This document shows positions 19,819 to 29,524 of a stretch of 64,000 nt of DNA, one piece after another; positions within the stretch are counted from its first letter, which is position 1; the number at the start of each line of letters is the position of its first letter. This stretch comes from a candidate division WOR-3 bacterium (GTDB taxonomy: Bacteria > SDB-A): the NCBI GenBank assembly GCA_016934535.1, contig JAFGSQ010000016.1, positions 1 through 64,000 on the forward strand, read 5' to 3'. The notes under the pieces were generated by a model. The model was not told the origin of the DNA and searched no databases. It saw nothing but the letters and a program-made list of their open reading frames with translations. The translations under genes and the position numbers were made by a program.

Positions 19819-19859
19819 ACCTTTTCGGGTTTTTCTCCGTCTAAATTAGTGTTAAATTG

Positions 19860-20363
19860 ATGGAGAATGAAATCGACTTTGATAATATCTACAAATCGCT
19901 TTGGCCGAAGATTTACAGGATTTGCCACCGGTTCGTCGGGGAAACTGAAGCCTACGACATGGCTCAGGAGGCTTTTTTGAAATTTTACAGGGCAAAAGCT
20001 AAATTCAGAGGGGAAAGCTCCTACTACACTTACATATACAGGATAGCCGTTAATTTATGCCTTGACAGACTGAAAAAAGAAAGCAGATTAGCCTCCATCG
20101 AAACTTTCGGAAATTTACTCGTAGATAAAAAATCAGAAAAAGAGGATCCTCTGATATCTAAAAGGATAGCGGAAGCGTTCGGATCACTCTCAAAACAGAG
20201 AAAAGCAGTCATTGTTCTTAGAATCCTCGAAGGGCTGTCCATCAGAGAGACCGCGGGCATTATGAACATATCTGAAGGTGCCGTTAAATCTCACCTTTTT
20301 CTGGCGGTCAGGGAAATGAGCAAAAAACTGGATTCATTGCGATCGGAGATCAAAAATGTTTGA
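19860..20363 (+). CDS. ECF-type RNA polymerase sigma factor
   Basis: 167 residues from the ATG at 19860; a TTG immediately before it is the alternative. Sigma region 2 spans about 10-85 (ETEAYDMAQEAFLKFYRA, the core-binding and -10 helix, then YIYRIAVNLCLDRLKK). Region 4 spans about 110-160 with LSKQRKAVIVLRILEGLSIRETA and the recognition helix ISEGAVKSHLFLAVREM. Region 3 is missing, as expected for ECF sigmas. No Shine-Dalgarno is visible. It overlaps an anti-sigma gene. A possible self-controlled promoter is AAACC (19817-19821), 17 bp, GTCTAA (19839-19844), resembling ECF elements only loosely. Confidence 0.9.
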   Translation: MENEIDFDNIYKSLWPKIYRICHRFVGETEAYDMAQEAFLKFYRAKAKFRGESSYYTYIYRIAVNLCLDRLKKESRLASIETFGNLLVDKKSEKEDPLISKRIAEAFGSLSKQRKAVIVLRILEGLSIRETAGIMNISEGAVKSHLFLAVREMSKKLDSLRSEIKNV

Positions 20364-20913
20364 AAAATGCTCCGAATTCAAACAATCTCTTTACGAATTT
20401 TCTTTCAGGGAAATACCAGAAGATGACTTGAAATTATTTTTAGCCCACGCTGAAAAATGCCCCTCGTGTAAATCCGAATACGAAAAAGTGATCCGGATTT
20501 TTGACGTCTTGAACAGGATTTCCTCTCCCGGAGTAATTCCGGAACCTGTTTTCGTGAAACCGCCAGAAAAAAAGTCTCTTTCCCGCGGAGTTTTCGGCAG
20601 ATTTCTCGCGGCCGCGGCACTGCTCTCTTTCATTGCTTTTTTCGTTTTCATAGAAAAGAATTCAATAGTGATAGAGAACGAAAAAATGAAAGAAGTCAAC
20701 TCTGCAATGTACGATATTTCAGGAGTTTCCGATGAAGAACTATACGAGTACGCCGATTACGAACAAAGGTTTTTTCAGGCTGAAAGCTTGTATTATTCAG
20801 AAGAAGACATTTATTTTCTTCTCGGATCACTGGAAGCCGAAGAATTCGGTCTTCTCAACAAAACACTCAAAAATAAATTTTTACTAAAAACTGCCGTCGG
20901 AGGGCTTTTATGA
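20356..20913 (+). CDS. Zinc-binding anti-sigma factor, membrane anchored
   Basis: 185 residues. The N-terminus carries the anti-sigma zinc finger HxxxCxxC (H31, C35, C38), with C5 as a possible fourth ligand. One transmembrane helix lies at about 80-102. The C-terminal 80 residues would be periplasmic and are strongly acidic (SDEELYEYADYEQRFFQAE). The gene overlaps the sigma gene by eight bases, the usual arrangement for a cognate pair: the cytoplasmic domain sequesters the sigma factor until an envelope signal releases it. The release mechanism is not visible. Confidence 0.85.
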   Translation: MFEKCSEFKQSLYEFSFREIPEDDLKLFLAHAEKCPSCKSEYEKVIRIFDVLNRISSPGVIPEPVFVKPPEKKSLSRGVFGRFLAAAALLSFIAFFVFIEKNSIVIENEKMKEVNSAMYDISGVSDEELYEYADYEQRFFQAESLYYSEEDIYFLLGSLEAEEFGLLNKTLKNKFLLKTAVGGLL

Positions 20914-21339: not shown

Positions 21340-23835
21340 TTATTCATCCCTTCTTTCTTTGTAGTCTCTTCTGTCTTTTTCGTCAGTTTTGCCTTTTTCG
21401 ACAATATTCCTGAAATCGTTTTCATCGACCAATTTTCTTCTTTGTTCTGTTCTCGCATCCATCAGGAATTCGGACACGATTATTTTTCTGACTTCGAATT
21501 CAGATTGCTCTATCTCGACAAAATCATTCATCTTCAATCCCAGAAGCTTCTCTCCCAGCGGAGAAAGATATGAAATGATCCCTGATTCCGGGTCCGAATC
21601 CCAGGGTCCCAGTATGGTAATGTTTTTTTCTTTTTCTCCGCTTTGCAGAAAGACAGTGGTTCCTATTGAGACTTTATCTGTATCAATCATGCCCTCGTCA
21701 ATGACACGTGTTTTAGAAAGCTGGTCTTCAAGATCCGAGATTTTACCCGCGATCTCGCGGTGTTTCGCTCTGGCCGCGTGATACTCAAAATTTTCGGACA
21801 GATCACCCATCGCCGCCGTCCTCCTTATCTCTTCGACAATAGCGGGCAGGGTGTCATAAAGAAGTTTGTCCCGAAGCGACTGTCTTTTGAAAAAAGAACT
21901 CTTTGAAACGTACACGGCTTTATCGCCGGAAGCCTGGGCTTCGTCTGAAACCACTACTTCGGGTCTGAGCCTGATCAGTTTCGTCCTTATCTCGCTCTTT
22001 TGAACAGGATTGAAAGCTGAGGAATCGCTGACCCAATTTACAATAAGTTTTGCCTGAGGCAAAAGTGCTTCGTCAACGGCGTTTTTAATTATTTCGTAAT
22101 CATTTTTCTTTAACAATTGTCTGACCTTAACAATGATCTTTTTGTTTCTTTCGGAGTTTTCTGAGGAACTTTTTTCAGTCAATTTGAAAATCCACTCTGT
22201 CAGATTTTCGTCAGACGGTATTCGGTCGGGTAAAATAACTTCGCCGCTTTTTACTTTCTCTGCCGCCCACAGCAAGGCTTCCGGCGATTCGAAAGGTCTT
22301 TCAAAAATATATGCCATGTCTTCTGCCCTGGTTTCAACGGGCAAGGAGTCTCTGAACCCGAAAGCCTTTGCGCAAAGAATCTGCTTCCGCAGACCTTCGT
22401 CAATTCTCGAAGAGCTTGTTAGGTTTCTGATTAACTTTTCCTTCAAATCTGTTTTGACCGAACTTTCGATTATCTCTAAAACTTCCATATCGCTCATTTG
22501 GCCGAAATCCAATTCCGTCAACTCGAATTTCTTGAAGTACTTTTGTAATTCAACAGACAAATAATGGAACTTCAACCTGGTTAGAGCCGAAGCTTTTTCA
22601 AGTTCACATTTCACGGCGAAAAAGTACTCTGAAGCTTTTTTCTCGTTTTCTTCCGTTGCGCCTTCTTTTTTCACCAACTGGAGAAAACTCGTCAATTTCC
22701 TGTAATGAGATTCGATGTCGCCGTCGTAAACGAAATCCTTATCGTTGCTTTGTTTTTTTTTCTTCTGTTTTTTAATTAAAATGAATTTACCCCCCTTTCC
22801 TCCGGCAGAATAATCAATGAAAGCGTCGTTTTTAATTCTGTCTCTCGAAGAGTTCCACCACGAGTCTTTTATTCCGAGACTGCTGGAGATATCTTTTTTC
22901 ATATCCTGGCCGAAAGCCTGGCCTGAAAAGCTTTTCAGATACATTTTTACAACTTGGACGGGATCTTCTTTTATAAGCGCCAAAAGTTTTTCTTTTTGAG
23001 TTTTTGTAACTACCGTCCAGTGATCGTCGTTGAGAGGTTCAATTATTTTTTCAGCGCCACCAAGATTCATCACGTGACCTTTTTTGTTTTCAAAGTCTAT
23101 CACAAGTTCGTCCTGATACGGGATCATTTCCCTTACCCGGCCCAAACCCCACGAATCGTGAAAAACCCATTTTCCTTCATCGTACCTGAGTATTTCCTGA
23201 AGCTTGTCGAGAACTGAAGTGACGTCTTTTCTAGAATGAACGTTCAGTTCCTCAAGAAAATATTCAAGATGCCGGCAATTTTTAAATTTCTCTCTCAGGC
23301 AAATCAGCAGATTTTTTCTTACTTCTTCACAAGGATTTATCTTCCAGCAAAATGCGAGTATTTTTTCCATTTCCTTCCAAAGTGACATTTTTTTGTAAAC
23401 TTCGATCACGTGAAACACCCAATCGTAAGCCGTTCTACTTTTCCCCGAATTCGATAACCTCTCGGCCCATTTTGATATTTTCTCATAATCAAACCAACCA
23501 TTTTCAGTCATTTGCAGAAAAATTTCTTCTGCTTCGGCGTCTCTTTTTTCAGAGATTAGTTCATCTATCACCTGTTCTTTCATTTCGTCGGATTTGTCCG
23601 ACAGCTCCATAAGTCTAAGGACGACGTCGCCTTTTTTTACTTCGGTTGCCAGAAGCCTTTTCAGAAACGCCAGTTCGTTATCACGATCCCCTGCCTGTTT
23701 TGCCTGCTCTGCGAGAAATCTAAGGCAAGTTCTGTTCTCTTCGGTTTTAAGCACTTTTTTACAGAATTCACAGGCTTCAGGAATTTTATCGTCTTTTTTG
23801 AATTCTTCAAGTTTTTCGGCTATGTTCTCATCCAT
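21340..23835 (-). CDS. greA: Long GreA-domain transcription elongation factor
   Basis: 831 residues from the ATG at 23835, which follows GAGGGC; the in-frame start at 23859 would overlap pgi. Standard GreA is about 158 residues. Here GreA is the C-terminus: an N-terminal coiled coil with the tip MGDLSENFEYHAARAKHR holding the conserved acidic pair (D, E), then the FKBP-like domain with ISYLSPLGEKLLGLKMND. About 640 residues of helical-repeat sequence precede it, with an SH3/Tudor-like segment (WVFHDSWGLGRVREMIPYQD, about 225-275). Similar giant GreA proteins are known from Borrelia and Treponema. GreA restarts stalled RNA polymerase; the role of the front part is unknown. Confidence 0.88.
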   Translation of the reverse strand: MDENIAEKLEEFKKDDKIPEACEFCKKVLKTEENRTCLRFLAEQAKQAGDRDNELAFLKRLLATEVKKGDVVLRLMELSDKSDEMKEQVIDELISEKRDAEAEEIFLQMTENGWFDYEKISKWAERLSNSGKSRTAYDWVFHVIEVYKKMSLWKEMEKILAFCWKINPCEEVRKNLLICLREKFKNCRHLEYFLEELNVHSRKDVTSVLDKLQEILRYDEGKWVFHDSWGLGRVREMIPYQDELVIDFENKKGHVMNLGGAEKIIEPLNDDHWTVVTKTQKEKLLALIKEDPVQVVKMYLKSFSGQAFGQDMKKDISSSLGIKDSWWNSSRDRIKNDAFIDYSAGGKGGKFILIKKQKKKKQSNDKDFVYDGDIESHYRKLTSFLQLVKKEGATEENEKKASEYFFAVKCELEKASALTRLKFHYLSVELQKYFKKFELTELDFGQMSDMEVLEIIESSVKTDLKEKLIRNLTSSSRIDEGLRKQILCAKAFGFRDSLPVETRAEDMAYIFERPFESPEALLWAAEKVKSGEVILPDRIPSDENLTEWIFKLTEKSSSENSERNKKIIVKVRQLLKKNDYEIIKNAVDEALLPQAKLIVNWVSDSSAFNPVQKSEIRTKLIRLRPEVVVSDEAQASGDKAVYVSKSSFFKRQSLRDKLLYDTLPAIVEEIRRTAAMGDLSENFEYHAARAKHREIAGKISDLEDQLSKTRVIDEGMIDTDKVSIGTTVFLQSGEKEKNITILGPWDSDPESGIISYLSPLGEKLLGLKMNDFVEIEQSEFEVRKIIVSEFLMDARTEQRRKLVDENDFRNIVEKGKTDEKDRRDYKERRDE

Positions 23836-23842
23836 TTTGCCC

Positions 23843-25096
23843 TCACAGACAGTTTTCAAGAAGTTTGAGCATTTCTTTTTTGTAAGCCTCTACCCCCGGC
23901 TGATTGAAAGCGTTGACCCCCAGGAACTGCGAACTGAAAGCGGCAGAGAACATTAAAAAAGCAAAAAGATCTCCCAGGCTGTTTTCATCGCTTTTTTCAA
24001 CAGTAATCTCAAGGACAGGTCTTCCGCTTTTTTCGTGAGCGCTTTTTGTTCCGTTTTTTGCCTGTTCGTTTATCCACGAAAGCTGTTTCCCGGCAATATA
24101 ATCGAGTTTGTCATTTATCTCAAGAACGGGGACTTCGAATTGGAAATCGTTTTTCACGTAAAAGAAAGTTTCGAACAGTTCCTTCCTTCCGTCCTGAATA
24201 TACTGACCGAGTGAATGAAGGTCCCTGGTGCAATGGATCGTAGAAGGAAATATGCCTTTGGAGTCTTTGCCTTCACATTCTCCGAAAAGTTGCTGCCACC
24301 ACAAACCCAAATAATTGCTCCTCTCCTGCCACGTGACAAACAGCTCGTTCAGAAAGCCCATCATCAACAGATTGAATCTCGCGAAAGAATACACCATCGC
24401 AGGATTTCGAGCGAATTCAAGATTGGTATATCTGTCTCTTCCCTTGCGGAACGATTCTGAAAAAGCTTCAATGTCGGCTCCGGCTATAGCAAGTGGGAGA
24501 AGACCGACAGGTGTTATGACCGAAAATCTTCCTCCTATATCGTCCGGAACAGAAAATGTTTTCCAATTATTTTCTGTCGCCATTTTTTTTAAAACACCCC
24601 TGGATGAGTCTGTAATTGCAGTGACGTGAACACTGTTGCCCCGATCTTTCGACAACTCGCTCAAAAATATCCTCAGTGAAACAGAAGGTTCAATAGTTGT
24701 TCCCGACTTGCTTATAACTATAAGGGCGGTCCTGTTTTTCTTTACATCACCCAGCAGTTTTATGTAAGTGTCCGGCGAAAGATTATACCCGCAAAAACTG
24801 ATATCGGGACCGCCGTCTTTGCAAAGAAAATCCAACGACGCTTTTGAGCCCAGATAAGAACCTCCCACACCCAGGATCACTACTTTTTCGAATTTATCCC
24901 GTATTTGTTCCGAATGTTCGACAATGTCTTTTTTCAGGAGATCAGACATTTTACAATCCATCCATCCTGTGTACTGAGATCCCGGGATTTTTCTTGTTAT
25001 CACAGAAAGAATGTTCCTGCAATATCCGTCCGAAGCATTGAATACCTCGTTCAATCTGGATAGCACCGCATTTGAGCCCAAAGATAATTCTACCAT
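23843..25096 (-). CDS. pgi: Glucose-6-phosphate isomerase
   Basis: 417 residues, the short bacterial form (the E. coli enzyme is about 549). It interconverts glucose-6-phosphate and fructose-6-phosphate. Recognisable parts are VVILGVGGSYLGSKASLDFL (about 71-90), VISKSGTTIEPSVSLRIF (about 127-144), DDIGGRFSVITPVGLLPLAIAG (about 180-201, containing the catalytic region GGRFS), and the C-terminal GVNAFNQPGVEAYKKEM. It lies 7 bp upstream of the long greA gene and is probably co-transcribed with it on the minus strand. Confidence 0.95.
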   Translation of the reverse strand: MVELSLGSNAVLSRLNEVFNASDGYCRNILSVITRKIPGSQYTGWMDCKMSDLLKKDIVEHSEQIRDKFEKVVILGVGGSYLGSKASLDFLCKDGGPDISFCGYNLSPDTYIKLLGDVKKNRTALIVISKSGTTIEPSVSLRIFLSELSKDRGNSVHVTAITDSSRGVLKKMATENNWKTFSVPDDIGGRFSVITPVGLLPLAIAGADIEAFSESFRKGRDRYTNLEFARNPAMVYSFARFNLLMMGFLNELFVTWQERSNYLGLWWQQLFGECEGKDSKGIFPSTIHCTRDLHSLGQYIQDGRKELFETFFYVKNDFQFEVPVLEINDKLDYIAGKQLSWINEQAKNGTKSAHEKSGRPVLEITVEKSDENSLGDLFAFLMFSAAFSSQFLGVNAFNQPGVEAYKKEMLKLLENCL

Positions 25097-25198: not shown

Positions 25199-26383
25199 AT
25201 GGACTTCAGTGATTTTTTTCAGCTCGTTGATTATTTGAACGGTCAGGAAGACCCTGAGCAAAGACAGGCTGTAATGACAAAGACGCTGAAGAACCTTGTT
25301 TCAAAGAAAAAAATTCCGCTATCTTCGAAGGACGGTACAGTTTTATTCGCATGGATAGGCGACGGCCCCTCCATTGAAGATAAAACGATTTACCTGAGAA
25401 CCTCTGAGACCGGCTGGGAAAGGGATGGTTTTCTTGGCAAATACTACAACGGCAATATTAGATTGGCCGTCAGAAATTTTAACGGAACGGAAAAAGTTCT
25501 GTACAAATTTGAATCTGACTGCATTTGGTTTCCAGACCCACTGAACCACAACGTGGAGTGGGATGGAACAACCGGAGAAAGCATGAATTCGCGTATGAAT
25601 TCCGTAGTTTTTTTTTCGAGCGAACCATCCTGGCCCAACGGAAGGACCGAAATGTTCGACGTGGAATTTGGTTTTGAAGGATTCAAAATAACTGTCAGAA
25701 ACTGGATTGTCATTCCCCCCGACTACGACAGAAACCTCTCATCCTATCCTCTTATGCTGCTGGCGTGCGGAGATCATTACGCGACTCATTTCGAATTGCC
25801 TTCACTTCCGGCTAAACTCATGTCGGAAAACTCGATAACCGAATTTCCTCTGATAGTTCTTGTCAGTTCCGAAGTAACTGAATCGGGAAGACCAATAGGC
25901 AAAGAAGAACTGTTTTCAAAACGAGGGGTATTCAGCAAAATGATGGAAAACTACTTCGCAAGTTTTATTGTTTACGAAATTGAATCCAGATTCCGAACGA
26001 AAAGAAATCCTGTATACAGGACCATAGGCGGTTTCAAGGAAGGCGCTTCTTTTGCCCTTAAAACCGGGCTTAATCATCCGGAGGTGTTTTCGGGCATAGT
26101 CTGCCAATCGCTGGATGAATATGATCCTGATTTGACAGCATCTCATCCCGGCGATTCCGCTCTTCCGCCCCCTTTTATATATTTTGACTGCGGCGAATCC
26201 GGTTGTCACGAAAAAACAAGAGAGTCTTCCTTGTCTCTGAAAAAAAAGGGGTACAAATATATAGACATCACCGTATTCAAAAATCAGGAAGAAAAACCCG
26301 AAGAAATAAAATCCAGACTCAGAAAAATGTTCGAAAAGATTTACGGCAGATTTCCTTTAAGTGCGGAGAAATATTATGATTGA
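25199..26383 (+). CDS. Esterase-fold protein with degenerate catalytic site
   Basis: 394 residues, no signal peptide. Residues about 45-125 look like the immunoglobulin-like domain found ahead of enterochelin-esterase-type hydrolases. Residues about 150-385 fit the putative esterase alpha/beta fold (PPDYDRNLSSYPLMLLACGD, then GGFKEGASFALKTGLNHPEVFSGIVCQS). In active relatives the nucleophile elbow is GxSxGG; here the serine position is K280 (GFKEGA). The C-terminal GGH that carries the catalytic His is replaced by KNQEEK (361-366). It is therefore probably a non-catalytic binding protein. Its stop overlaps the HD-GYP gene start. Confidence 0.75.
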   Translation: MDFSDFFQLVDYLNGQEDPEQRQAVMTKTLKNLVSKKKIPLSSKDGTVLFAWIGDGPSIEDKTIYLRTSETGWERDGFLGKYYNGNIRLAVRNFNGTEKVLYKFESDCIWFPDPLNHNVEWDGTTGESMNSRMNSVVFFSSEPSWPNGRTEMFDVEFGFEGFKITVRNWIVIPPDYDRNLSSYPLMLLACGDHYATHFELPSLPAKLMSENSITEFPLIVLVSSEVTESGRPIGKEELFSKRGVFSKMMENYFASFIVYEIESRFRTKRNPVYRTIGGFKEGASFALKTGLNHPEVFSGIVCQSLDEYDPDLTASHPGDSALPPPFIYFDCGESGCHEKTRESSLSLKKKGYKYIDITVFKNQEEKPEEIKSRLRKMFEKIYGRFPLSAEKYYD

Positions 26384-27545
26384 CATGGTCAAATTACTTT
26401 ACAGACTCAACCAGATAGGAATTTCTCTTTCTGCCATCAGGGACCTCGATGTTTTTTTCGACTACATCCTTAAAGAAGCGAGAGAATTCACGAATTGCGA
26501 CGGCGGAACGCTTTATACCGTCCACGGAGACATGCTGGAACTGACCGTGAGCCAAAATCAAAAACTTTCTGAAAGAGCTGGAGACAACGCAGTAAAAACA
26601 AATTACATCAAAGTCTCAATGCCGATATCTACACAAAGCATAGCAGGTTACGTCACGCTGACAGGCAATACTGTCAACATTGCGGACGCTTACGACATAG
26701 ATAAGAAATACCCGTTCAAACACAACAGGTCATTCGATGAAAAGTCGGATTACAAAACGACATCAATTCTCACCGTGCCTCTGAAAGAACCCTCCGGGAT
26801 CATACTCGGTGTATTACAGCTGATCAACAGGCGCGACGACGAAGGGAACATTACACCCTTCCCCGATCATCTTGTCGAACTCACTCTCTCACTCGCCTCG
26901 CAGGCCGCTGTCGCCCTGAGAAACGTAAAGTACTCGGAAGAACTTAAAAAATCGTATTACGAAACTATTTTCAGGCTTTCAGTTGCCGCTGAATTCAAAG
27001 ATTCGGACACGGCCAACCACCTAAAAAGGATGAGTAATTACACACTGATGATAGCCAAAAACATCTCTCTTTCGCCTGAGGAAACAGAGCTCATATTTCA
27101 TGCGGCACCCATGCACGACATCGGAAAACTCGGAATACCTGATCACATTCTCCTCAAACCCGGAAGGCTGACTGACGAGGAATGGGAAGAAATGAAAAAA
27201 CACACGATATACGGTTCGAAAATACTAGAAAATTCTAAGAACACCATACTCGAAACTTCGCGCATAATTGCGCTTTATCATCATGAAAAATACAACGGTT
27301 CAGGATATCCATTCGGCCTGAAAGGCGAAGACATCCCTCTTTACGCGAGGATTTGTTCAATAGCGGACGTATTCGATGCGCTGACTTCACCCAGACCGTA
27401 TAAGAATGCTTTCTCGACTGATAAATCTTTTGGCATTATACAGGAAGAAAAAGGAGTTTCATTCGATCCTGAACTCACCGAGGCTTTCCTTAAAGACAAA
27501 TCACAGATTCTCTCAATAATGAATATGTACAGCGAATCAGACTAG
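26376..27545 (+). CDS. GAF-HD-GYP domain protein (cyclic-di-GMP phosphodiesterase type)
   Basis: 389 residues from the ATG at 26376, seven bases after GGAG; a GTG at 26361 is less likely. A GAF sensor domain (about 18-185, with FTNCDGGTLYTVHGD) is followed by an HD-GYP domain (about 195-370). The metal-binding HD is H247-D248 (MHDIGKLGIPD), then HHE (302-304), GSGYP (308-312) and ADVFDALTSPRPYK. Family members hydrolyse cyclic-di-GMP, which in many bacteria controls pili and motility. It is soluble, so the signal is likely cytoplasmic. It overlaps the esterase-fold gene by eight bases and converges with the CcdA fusion gene, overlapping by nine. Confidence 0.9.
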   Translation: MIDMVKLLYRLNQIGISLSAIRDLDVFFDYILKEAREFTNCDGGTLYTVHGDMLELTVSQNQKLSERAGDNAVKTNYIKVSMPISTQSIAGYVTLTGNTVNIADAYDIDKKYPFKHNRSFDEKSDYKTTSILTVPLKEPSGIILGVLQLINRRDDEGNITPFPDHLVELTLSLASQAAVALRNVKYSEELKKSYYETIFRLSVAAEFKDSDTANHLKRMSNYTLMIAKNISLSPEETELIFHAAPMHDIGKLGIPDHILLKPGRLTDEEWEEMKKHTIYGSKILENSKNTILETSRIIALYHHEKYNGSGYPFGLKGEDIPLYARICSIADVFDALTSPRPYKNAFSTDKSFGIIQEEKGVSFDPELTEAFLKDKSQILSIMNMYSESD

Positions 27546-28601
27546 TATCTGTAAAAGAACTAACGTACCGAGAGAAAGGATTACAGCAGCAACGGCTATT
27601 TTGAAAATCCTAAAATTTCTCTGAACGAACCTCTGCACAGGACTCAGATCCGAAGTGAACGAATACAAAATAATTATCGCCAGAAGAGGTAAAACAAACA
27701 TGACGTTGTAAATCAAAAGCAATGCGGCTGTTTTGAAAGTCACTTGCGAAATCATGACTATTGTCGGAATGTAAATTTGACCCGTACAAAGAAGCTCTGA
27801 AAAAGAAACTGCTATGCCCACGAGGAAAAATATAAAAAAAAGCGCGTTTTTGTTAATCCTGAGGATGTTATGGATTCTACGAACGCTTTTCTGGGAAAGG
27901 GACGAAAGCCTGCCTGCTGGTTTAAACGCGTCCAACAACTGAATAAACGCCGTAACAAGGCAAAACCCGATTATAAGTATTTTAACGAAAAGCGCTGACC
28001 AAGGGAAAAAAGAGAAATTTCTGGCGAGAAAAACAGACGACGCCCATCCGAAAAAGAAATAAAAAAAGAAAATGCCGGTGACGTAGCAAATTCCTGAAAA
28101 AACGACGTTTTTTTTATTTCTTCCTTTTAATGAAAGAAAAGACAACAAGAACACCAGCGCCGTAAAAGCGCAGGGATTAACTCCGTCCGCCAACCCGAGT
28201 AGTGCGGTTGATAGCAAATGAAGATTGCTTTCATTTGGAACCGTAACTGAGTTTTCTTCCTGATTCCTGTAGTAAAAATAATAAAAGATCAAAGAGTCGT
28301 CCCTTAGATTGCCCGTTAGAAGAGTGTCTCCTATGAAAAGTGCGGGAAACTTGAAATAATCCATTCCGTCAGGATTTTCGAGTGAGTTCCATTTCAGCTG
28401 ATATGACTCTCTTCCGGATGCGGAATAAGGATCAACTTTGTAAAAAAGGATTCTGGGATCTTTTTCTTCGAGAGTCTTCAGCCACATAAAATAATCGGTG
28501 CATTTACCGCAGGAATTTGAAGCGTAATAATAAGCTGGAGCGGTCCTCAATAAAGACGGAAAAACCGACAGGACGATCCCGGCGAAAAAAAGTTTTCTCA
28601 T
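27537..28601 (-). CDS. Thioredoxin-fold / CcdA fusion, membrane thiol-disulfide protein
   Basis: 354 residues from the ATG at 28601; the frame is open upstream but that part lies inside the response regulator gene. A signal peptide (about 1-22) leads to a thioredoxin-like domain with CGKC (C31, C34) and a cis-proline segment FPALFIGD (85-92). From about residue 130 come six or so membrane helices of the CcdA/DsbD type with the redox cysteine C144 in ADGVNPCAFTAL and a second in SELLCTGQIYIPT. Such proteins carry electrons across the membrane to periplasmic thiols. Last gene of the ileS-kinase-regulator unit. Confidence 0.85.
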   Translation of the reverse strand: MRKLFFAGIVLSVFPSLLRTAPAYYYASNSCGKCTDYFMWLKTLEEKDPRILFYKVDPYSASGRESYQLKWNSLENPDGMDYFKFPALFIGDTLLTGNLRDDSLIFYYFYYRNQEENSVTVPNESNLHLLSTALLGLADGVNPCAFTALVFLLSFLSLKGRNKKNVVFSGICYVTGIFFFYFFFGWASSVFLARNFSFFPWSALFVKILIIGFCLVTAFIQLLDAFKPAGRLSSLSQKSVRRIHNILRINKNALFFIFFLVGIAVSFSELLCTGQIYIPTIVMISQVTFKTAALLLIYNVMFVLPLLAIIILYSFTSDLSPVQRFVQRNFRIFKIAVAAVILSLGTLVLLQILV

Positions 28602-28606
28602 TTGGT

Positions 28607-29524
28607 TCAGAACTTCTTTATATATTCTTCCGACATCATAGAAAATATCTTCATTGCTATCGTGTAACTTGAAAAAGGAAGAATTCTGGTTATCTCTTCG
28701 TAATTGAATCCTTCCTTGATCTTGTCGATGATCATCTTTCCGGTTTTGTCCTCCGGATCCAGGTTTTCCGAATTTACAGCATAAACAGAGTTTTTTCCGC
28801 CAATGAGCTTTAAGATTCTTTTCTCTTCGTCCATCTGACGGGCACATTCGAGAAGAGCTTTTTCAATGGGCACAGACATGTCAACAGACACTTCGTCGGA
28901 TTCGCTGAACTGGAAAACACCCTGTTCCAGACTCAGTAAAGTGTAAAGAGCGTCCCATCCTTTTCTGTTTAGCATGGAGGCTCCGGTTATTTTCCCTTCC
29001 TTTATCCATATATTACCTGAAAAGTATTCGGTCTCTACGGTGATTTTTCCTTTTTTGCCGGCAGAAGTCAGATTTTGCAGTATGTCGGACAGAGAGAGAA
29101 TGTCAAAACTTCCTCTGAGCCCTTTCGATTCGAGCTCTTTAATTCTGTGAGCTGTTTGTAAACGCGTTTTAACTCTCGCGAAAAGCTCCTCGAACACGAA
29201 AGGTTTGATAATGTAATCGTCGGCGCCGTCTCCGAGCCCTTTTATTCTGCTTTCTATCCTGTCGTCTCCTGTCAGAAAAATAAACGGGAGATCGCTCAAA
29301 GTATCGTCAGCTTTAATGGTCTCGAGAAGAGAAAACCCGTCCACTCCCGGCATTCTTATATCTGAAACGATTATGTCGGGTTTGTTTCTATTAATCTTAA
29401 GTATTGCATCCATACCGTCATAGCTCGTAAGAACTTCCCATCCTCTCTGCTGAAAGTTGAATTTGACGAGGTCGACAAGCTCTCTGTCATCGTCAATTAT
29501 CAGGACTGTCGTTTTCTTTTTCAC
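28607..29524 (-). CDS. Response regulator with PATAN (DUF4388) output domain
   Basis: 305 residues. The receiver domain (1-125) has acidic residues D11-D13, phospho-acceptor D55 (SDIRMPGVDGF) and the conserved Lys in YIIKPFVFEELF. From about 133 to 235 it matches the PATAN/DUF4388 domain (FDILSLSDILQNLTSAGKKGKITVE, then GNIWIKEGKITGAS and FQFSE). A helical C-terminal part (about 260-300) resembles an incomplete winged helix. PATAN domains mediate protein contacts in PatA-type regulators rather than DNA binding. It overlaps the histidine kinase gene by four bases, so the two are a cognate pair. Confidence 0.87.
   Translation of the reverse strand: MKKKTTVLIIDDDRELVDLVKFNFQQRGWEVLTSYDGMDAILKINRNKPDIIVSDIRMPGVDGFSLLETIKADDTLSDLPFIFLTGDDRIESRIKGLGDGADDYIIKPFVFEELFARVKTRLQTAHRIKELESKGLRGSFDILSLSDILQNLTSAGKKGKITVETEYFSGNIWIKEGKITGASMLNRKGWDALYTLLSLEQGVFQFSESDEVSVDMSVPIEKALLECARQMDEEKRILKLIGGKNSVYAVNSENLDPEDKTGKMIIDKIKEGFNYEEITRILPFSSYTIAMKIFSMMSEEYIKKF

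Follow-up and report, generated by a model that had tools for sequence, protein, structure and literature searches.

The window is a 64,000-nucleotide stretch (positions 1 to 64,000) of contig JAFGSQ010000016.1 from a candidate division WOR-3 bacterium. Within it, a gene for an esterase-like protein that has lost its catalytic residues runs into a gene for a GAF-HD-GYP phosphodiesterase. The genes, domains, and residues referred to below are as follows:

23843-25096 (-): phosphoglucose isomerase gene (PF00342), divergent neighbor of the pair in all four genome neighborhoods
25199-26383 (+): predicted pseudo-esterase gene, 394 aa, ATG start
25199-25333 (+): N-terminal helical segment, residues 1-45, without a signal peptide
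25334-25642 (+): CBM48/E-set-like domain, about residues 46-148 (boundaries approximate), the best conserved part
25415-25417 (+): Trp73, aligned with AMPK-beta1 W100
25505-25507 (+): Lys103, aligned with AMPK-beta1 K126
25526-25528 (+): Trp110, aligned with AMPK-beta1 W133
25643-26380 (+): CE1-like alpha/beta-hydrolase domain, residues 149-394, predicted to be catalytically dead
26036-26038 (+): Lys280, replacing the nucleophile serine
26201-26206 (+): Gly335-Cys336, replacing the catalytic acid
26279-26296 (+): KNQEEK (residues 361-366), replacing the catalytic histidine motif
26365-26369 (+): GGAGA, possible ribosome-binding site of the HD-GYP gene, found by sequence inspection
26376-26383 (+): overlap of the esterase stop with the HD-GYP start, 8 bp
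26376-27545 (+): predicted GAF-HD-GYP phosphodiesterase gene, 389 aa, PmGH-like, metal-ligand positions kept

The initial annotation had seen an esterase fold in outline, and a Pfam search with the window protein agrees: residues 170-304 match PF00756 (E 8.5e-7, above the gathering score), and by sequence the fold is present in all four members of the lineage. An AlphaFold2 model built from the window, L013, and L014 proteins was unusable (mean pLDDT 35.7, pTM 0.23). Alignment of the four proteins with their relatives revealed the loss of each catalytic position. First, the AAG codon of Lys280, in GGFKEGA, lies exactly at the serine column of GxSxG, where the initial annotation had put it. The initial annotation had proposed checking whether homologs share the lysine: they do not, as the column reads K, K, E, and G in the four lineage proteins, which rules out Lys280 as a conserved functional residue. 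Serine, though, is missing from every one of them. Among 31 distant relative domains the column holds Ser in 30 and Gln in one, counting ORFs in loci L001-L040, a subset of the 80 matching genomes (42 rows, less seven duplicate-locus rows and the four themselves). Second, the acid is lost as well, a point absent from the initial annotation. In a 12-row alignment, the acid column after DCG-x-x is Gly followed by C, S, N, or S in the four, and Asp or Glu, or Asn/Gly followed by Asp, in eight relatives. Third, the C-terminal histidine motif is replaced, as had been claimed: KNQEEK stands where relatives have [ED]GHSWG[NS]W (GGHDWFYW in L022), and the four proteins read FKNQEEK, FKDQTES, FKNQQEK, and FDQEDDN. 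Acid and histidine positions are thus lost in four of four. Constraint on this histidine segment is lowered, with a mean pair identity of 0.51 in the four versus 0.70 in seven relatives (L022 was excluded from seven-relative comparisons).

In each of the four genomes a further PF00756 protein, whose GHSxGG elbow is intact, serves as an internal control. This second protein (G000:C18:10585-11052, L043; also L042, L044, and L045) has a hydrophobic N-terminal stretch and is flanked by a PpiC/SurA-like protein on one side and an MBOAT-like O-acyltransferase on the other (both named by eye from translations). Separately, the distant PF00756 protein at L033:1363-2511 has Gln in place of the serine (GPQAGA), carries a TPR region at its C-terminus, and is possibly an independent pseudo-esterase.

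Profile comparison shows descent, at the level of homology, from mostly secreted esterases composed of a CBM48-like and a CE1-type domain. In hhalign, a profile of the four proteins matched the seven best relatives over residues 5-354 (probability 99.6, E 9.1e-24), a span that takes in the N-terminal helical segment, the E-set domain, and the hydrolase. A 12-row profile, in which the four are mixed with eight relatives, matched CBM48-CE1 esterase structures at E ~4e-35. What the four have lost, besides the triad, is the export signal. Their N-terminal hydropathy maxima lie between 0.52 and 0.85, versus 2.04-3.34 in six of the eight relatives; the other two are L022 (0.91) and L018 (1.84), whose available stretch begins inside the gene, so that it was used from an arbitrary start and its own N-terminus is missing. 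By our criterion no member of the four has a signal peptide, nor a strongly hydrophobic N-terminal segment, which argues that the pseudo-esterase is probably cytoplasmic, like its HD-GYP partner.

The partner gene begins with an ATG at 26376, six bases 3' of GGAGA, and it overlaps the esterase stop, as first described, by 8 bp. The pair is adjacent in all four genomes of the phylum examined, with overlaps of 8, 8, 8, and 11 bp, so the pairing of a dead esterase with an HD-GYP protein extends beyond the window. The partner contains HD_5 (E 7e-35) and GAF (E 6.6e-14) domains, and an HD-GYP profile aligned with PmGH over residues 86-388 (E 3.5e-91). D209, D211, H215, H247, D248, K251, H276, H302, H303, and D331 are invariant in the four genomes. 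The eight metal ligands that PMC4159591 names for PmGH correspond, as read from the printed alignment, to D211 (for E185), H215, H247, D248, H276, H302, H303, and D331. By its HD, GYP, and metal-ligand residues, the partner is an intact HD-GYP phosphodiesterase and is predicted to hydrolyze c-di-GMP. A weak PADLOC match of the HD part to Cas10_Id was set aside. The four genomes carry 5, 6, 6, and 9 GGDEF matches and 3, 4, 4, and 3 HD_5 matches, which makes a c-di-GMP network likely. Judging from titles and abstract openings, we found no open-access paper describing an esterase-like protein as the partner of an HD-GYP protein.

The phylum is sampled by four genomes, and all four encode the protein, at 68, 65, and 36% identity to the window copy in the other three. 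A scan of genome contigs with the single protein gave no match, and a profile scan gave two named loci, recorded as MAG candidate division WOR-3 Zod_Metabat.185 and MAG Desulfuromonas sp. SDB. The latter name (L014, LKUE01000420.1) looks wrong: the matching genome is placed in the window's own family, within the four-genome phylum. Viral contigs, scanned with the relatives to deepen the alignment, gave no confirmed match. Reading frames are open in all four lineage genes, with no internal stop; synonymous sites are saturated in five of six pairs, and dN is 0.23-0.66. Forty-two positions are invariant in the four and unseen in all eight relatives, many of them in the E-set domain (in WERDG, VEWDG, and MNSV) and in HYAT, which would adjoin the loop that we take, from its inferred position, as the oxyanion side. 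A retained non-catalytic function would leave such a pattern. A bias of conservation toward the E-set domain was rejected as a feature special to the four, since the relatives show the same in 20 of 21 pairs.

A conserved pseudo-esterase is, on these alignments, well supported, and the binding or sensing role proposed in the initial annotation is plausible. We suggest, with roughly even confidence, that a non-catalytic pseudo-esterase under purifying selection binds a carbohydrate or metabolite and acts on the GAF-HD-GYP protein to adjust c-di-GMP breakdown. Under this model, a CBM48-like module joined to a CE1-type fold, with Ser, acid, and His all gone, would have been kept as a binding protein. 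Its ligand would most likely be a carbohydrate or related metabolite, held at the CBM48-like face or in the groove next to the former active site, and the pseudo-esterase would act on the co-translated enzyme. The location of the protein, its ligand, its physical contact with the partner, and the direction of regulation are parts of the model that we infer.

The strongest competitor, to which we would give about a one-in-three standing, is that the pseudo-esterase works by itself inside the cell, binding carbohydrate or serving as a scaffold, and that the HD-GYP gene is adjacent only through block synteny. At least seven genes around the pair keep the same order even in the more distant genus. 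In the record named Desulfuromonas sp. SDB, the kept order is GreA-like, isomerase, pseudo-esterase, HD-GYP, membrane protein, response regulator, and kinase (names assigned by eye against the window genes). Co-occurrence with HD-GYP, which the initial annotation had offered as a check, therefore stands as adjacency in four of four genomes, but this adjacency is weak evidence because the wider block, pair included, is syntenic. Within L001-L040, HD-GYP relatives occur only beside the four, and none was found in flanks of ~1.5 kb (shorter at contig ends) around L006, L011, L016-L018, L020, and L021; among these loci the pairing is restricted to this lineage. The HD-GYP protein also evolves more slowly than the esterase (89, 85, and 70% identity versus 68, 65, and 36%) and, given this, may act alone. 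Against independent action stands the recurrence of the stop-start overlap in all four genomes; such overlaps are, however, common in compact genomes.

The surrounding genes have features of their own. An 839-aa protein (21340-23859, -) carries the GreA/GreB domains at its C-terminus, and a protein laid out in the same way, by eye, is encoded in L013 (4144-6636). Farther upstream (19857-20913, +), an ECF-type sigma factor gene is overlapped by the start of a gene with a weak, anti-sigma-like zf-HC2 match. A response regulator fused to DUF4388 (28607-29524, -) lies beside a histidine kinase, an order kept in L014. The listed ORF at 27537-28847 (-) converges with the HD-GYP gene, the stop ends of the two sharing 9 bp, and it also reaches 241 bp into the gene for the response regulator; an ATG within it, at MRKLFFAGIVLS, is the likelier start. 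A promoter and terminator scan was near chance (8 versus 4.2 and 5 versus 2.8).

A more specific proposal about the ligand, which we consider rather improbable, is that the protein is a bacterial counterpart of AMPK-beta: a cytoplasmic CBM48-bearing pseudo-esterase would read glycogen or maltodextrin and gate the GAF-HD-GYP enzyme, so that reserves set c-di-GMP. In the PDB, the 12-row E-set profile matched the AMPK-beta glycogen-binding domain best (1Z0N, E 1.6e-6), and W73, K103, and W110 are invariant in 12 of 12 rows at the Trp-Lys-Trp positions of AMPK-beta1 (residue pairing read from the alignment). According to PMC2642990, W100, K126, and W133 of AMPK-beta1 contact sugar, and mutation markedly lowered glycogen binding. 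All four genomes contain matches to glycogen synthase and to a CBM48 branching enzyme (the latter named by eye from translations). Direct tests of the E-set domain failed: the window segment matched no Pfam family, a profile of the four alone missed every AMPK chain, its matches being weak and unrelated, and comparison with the CBM48 of branching enzymes gave no match (probability 10.8). The CBM48/E-set assignment thus runs through a chain of profiles built on relatives. The site is inherited, since all eight relatives share this W-K-W, and so it provides no evidence of a new sensing role. Glycogen as the signal is speculative; if true, information would flow from reserves to c-di-GMP, opposite to the Streptomyces case, in which c-di-GMP is reported to bind the debranching enzyme GlgX (PMC9530166).

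We regard it as unlikely, at just under one chance in ten, that catalysis persists at a relocated or unusual site, for example through Cys331 or His193 or by non-serine chemistry in the old pocket. All four proteins share His193, Asp330, Cys331, and Glu333, and the loop containing His193 aligns with the putative oxyanion-side loop. However, His193 is the only invariant His, and the L003 copy lacks a C-terminal catalytic His, its last His being residue 197, which together make a different active site unlikely. A loose elbow, [GA]x[SCT]x[GA], is absent from three of the four proteins, the sole match being GASFA at 282, and triad-keeping relatives also have D330 (most of them) and C331 (L011). 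A decaying pseudogene kept by chance, which pairwise identities as low as 35-37% between genera might suggest, is already largely refuted by open frames in all four genomes, synonymous saturation with much lower dN, and strongly conserved family-specific motifs, and we give it almost no weight.

Pseudoenzymes that keep a fold and lose the entire triad show how catalytic scaffolds turn into sensors or adaptors. In this isolated phylum the change is fixed, every one of the four genomes carrying it, and it is accompanied by a lost export signal and by overlap with the gene of an intact second-messenger enzyme. The combined loss of triad and export signal, with the overlap, suggests the conversion of a former sugar-processing enzyme into an internal sensor or adaptor in a small, isolated lineage.

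Several known systems resemble parts of this pair. Enterochelin esterase Fes (PDB 2B20, 3MGA), an active enzyme, shares the N-terminal E-set-like domain and the PF00756 fold but is more distant, and MPT51 is a Ser-less relative of antigen 85. PmGH (PDB 4MCW, 4MDZ, 4ME4), a GAF-HD-GYP c-di-GMP phosphodiesterase, has the same architecture as the partner, which keeps all eight metal-ligand positions, with Asp at E185; we know of no esterase-like partner for PmGH. The AMPK-beta glycogen-binding domain belongs to a eukaryotic kinase subunit, and the profile of the four proteins alone does not reach it. Closer are the mostly secreted PF00756 relatives (L006, L011, L016-L018, L020, and L021), which have the same helical segment, E-set domain, and hydrolase but keep the GxSxGG elbow, the acid, and the histidine motif that the pseudo-esterase lacks. 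DmCE1B and wtsFae1A/B (PDB 7B5V, 6RZO, 6RZN, 8BBP) share the CBM48 + CE1 order, and the mixed profile matched these structures over nearly the whole length; 6RZN and 8BBP have Asn and Lys where the pseudo-esterase keeps Lys and Trp. According to PMC8040265, no glycan in the set tried was bound by the CBM48 modules under test, and the DmCE1B triad is located in the groove between the CBM48 and CE1 domains. There the DmCE1 enzymes, for which secretion is predicted, retain Ser-His-Asp/Glu, whereas the pseudo-esterase has neither signal peptide nor triad.
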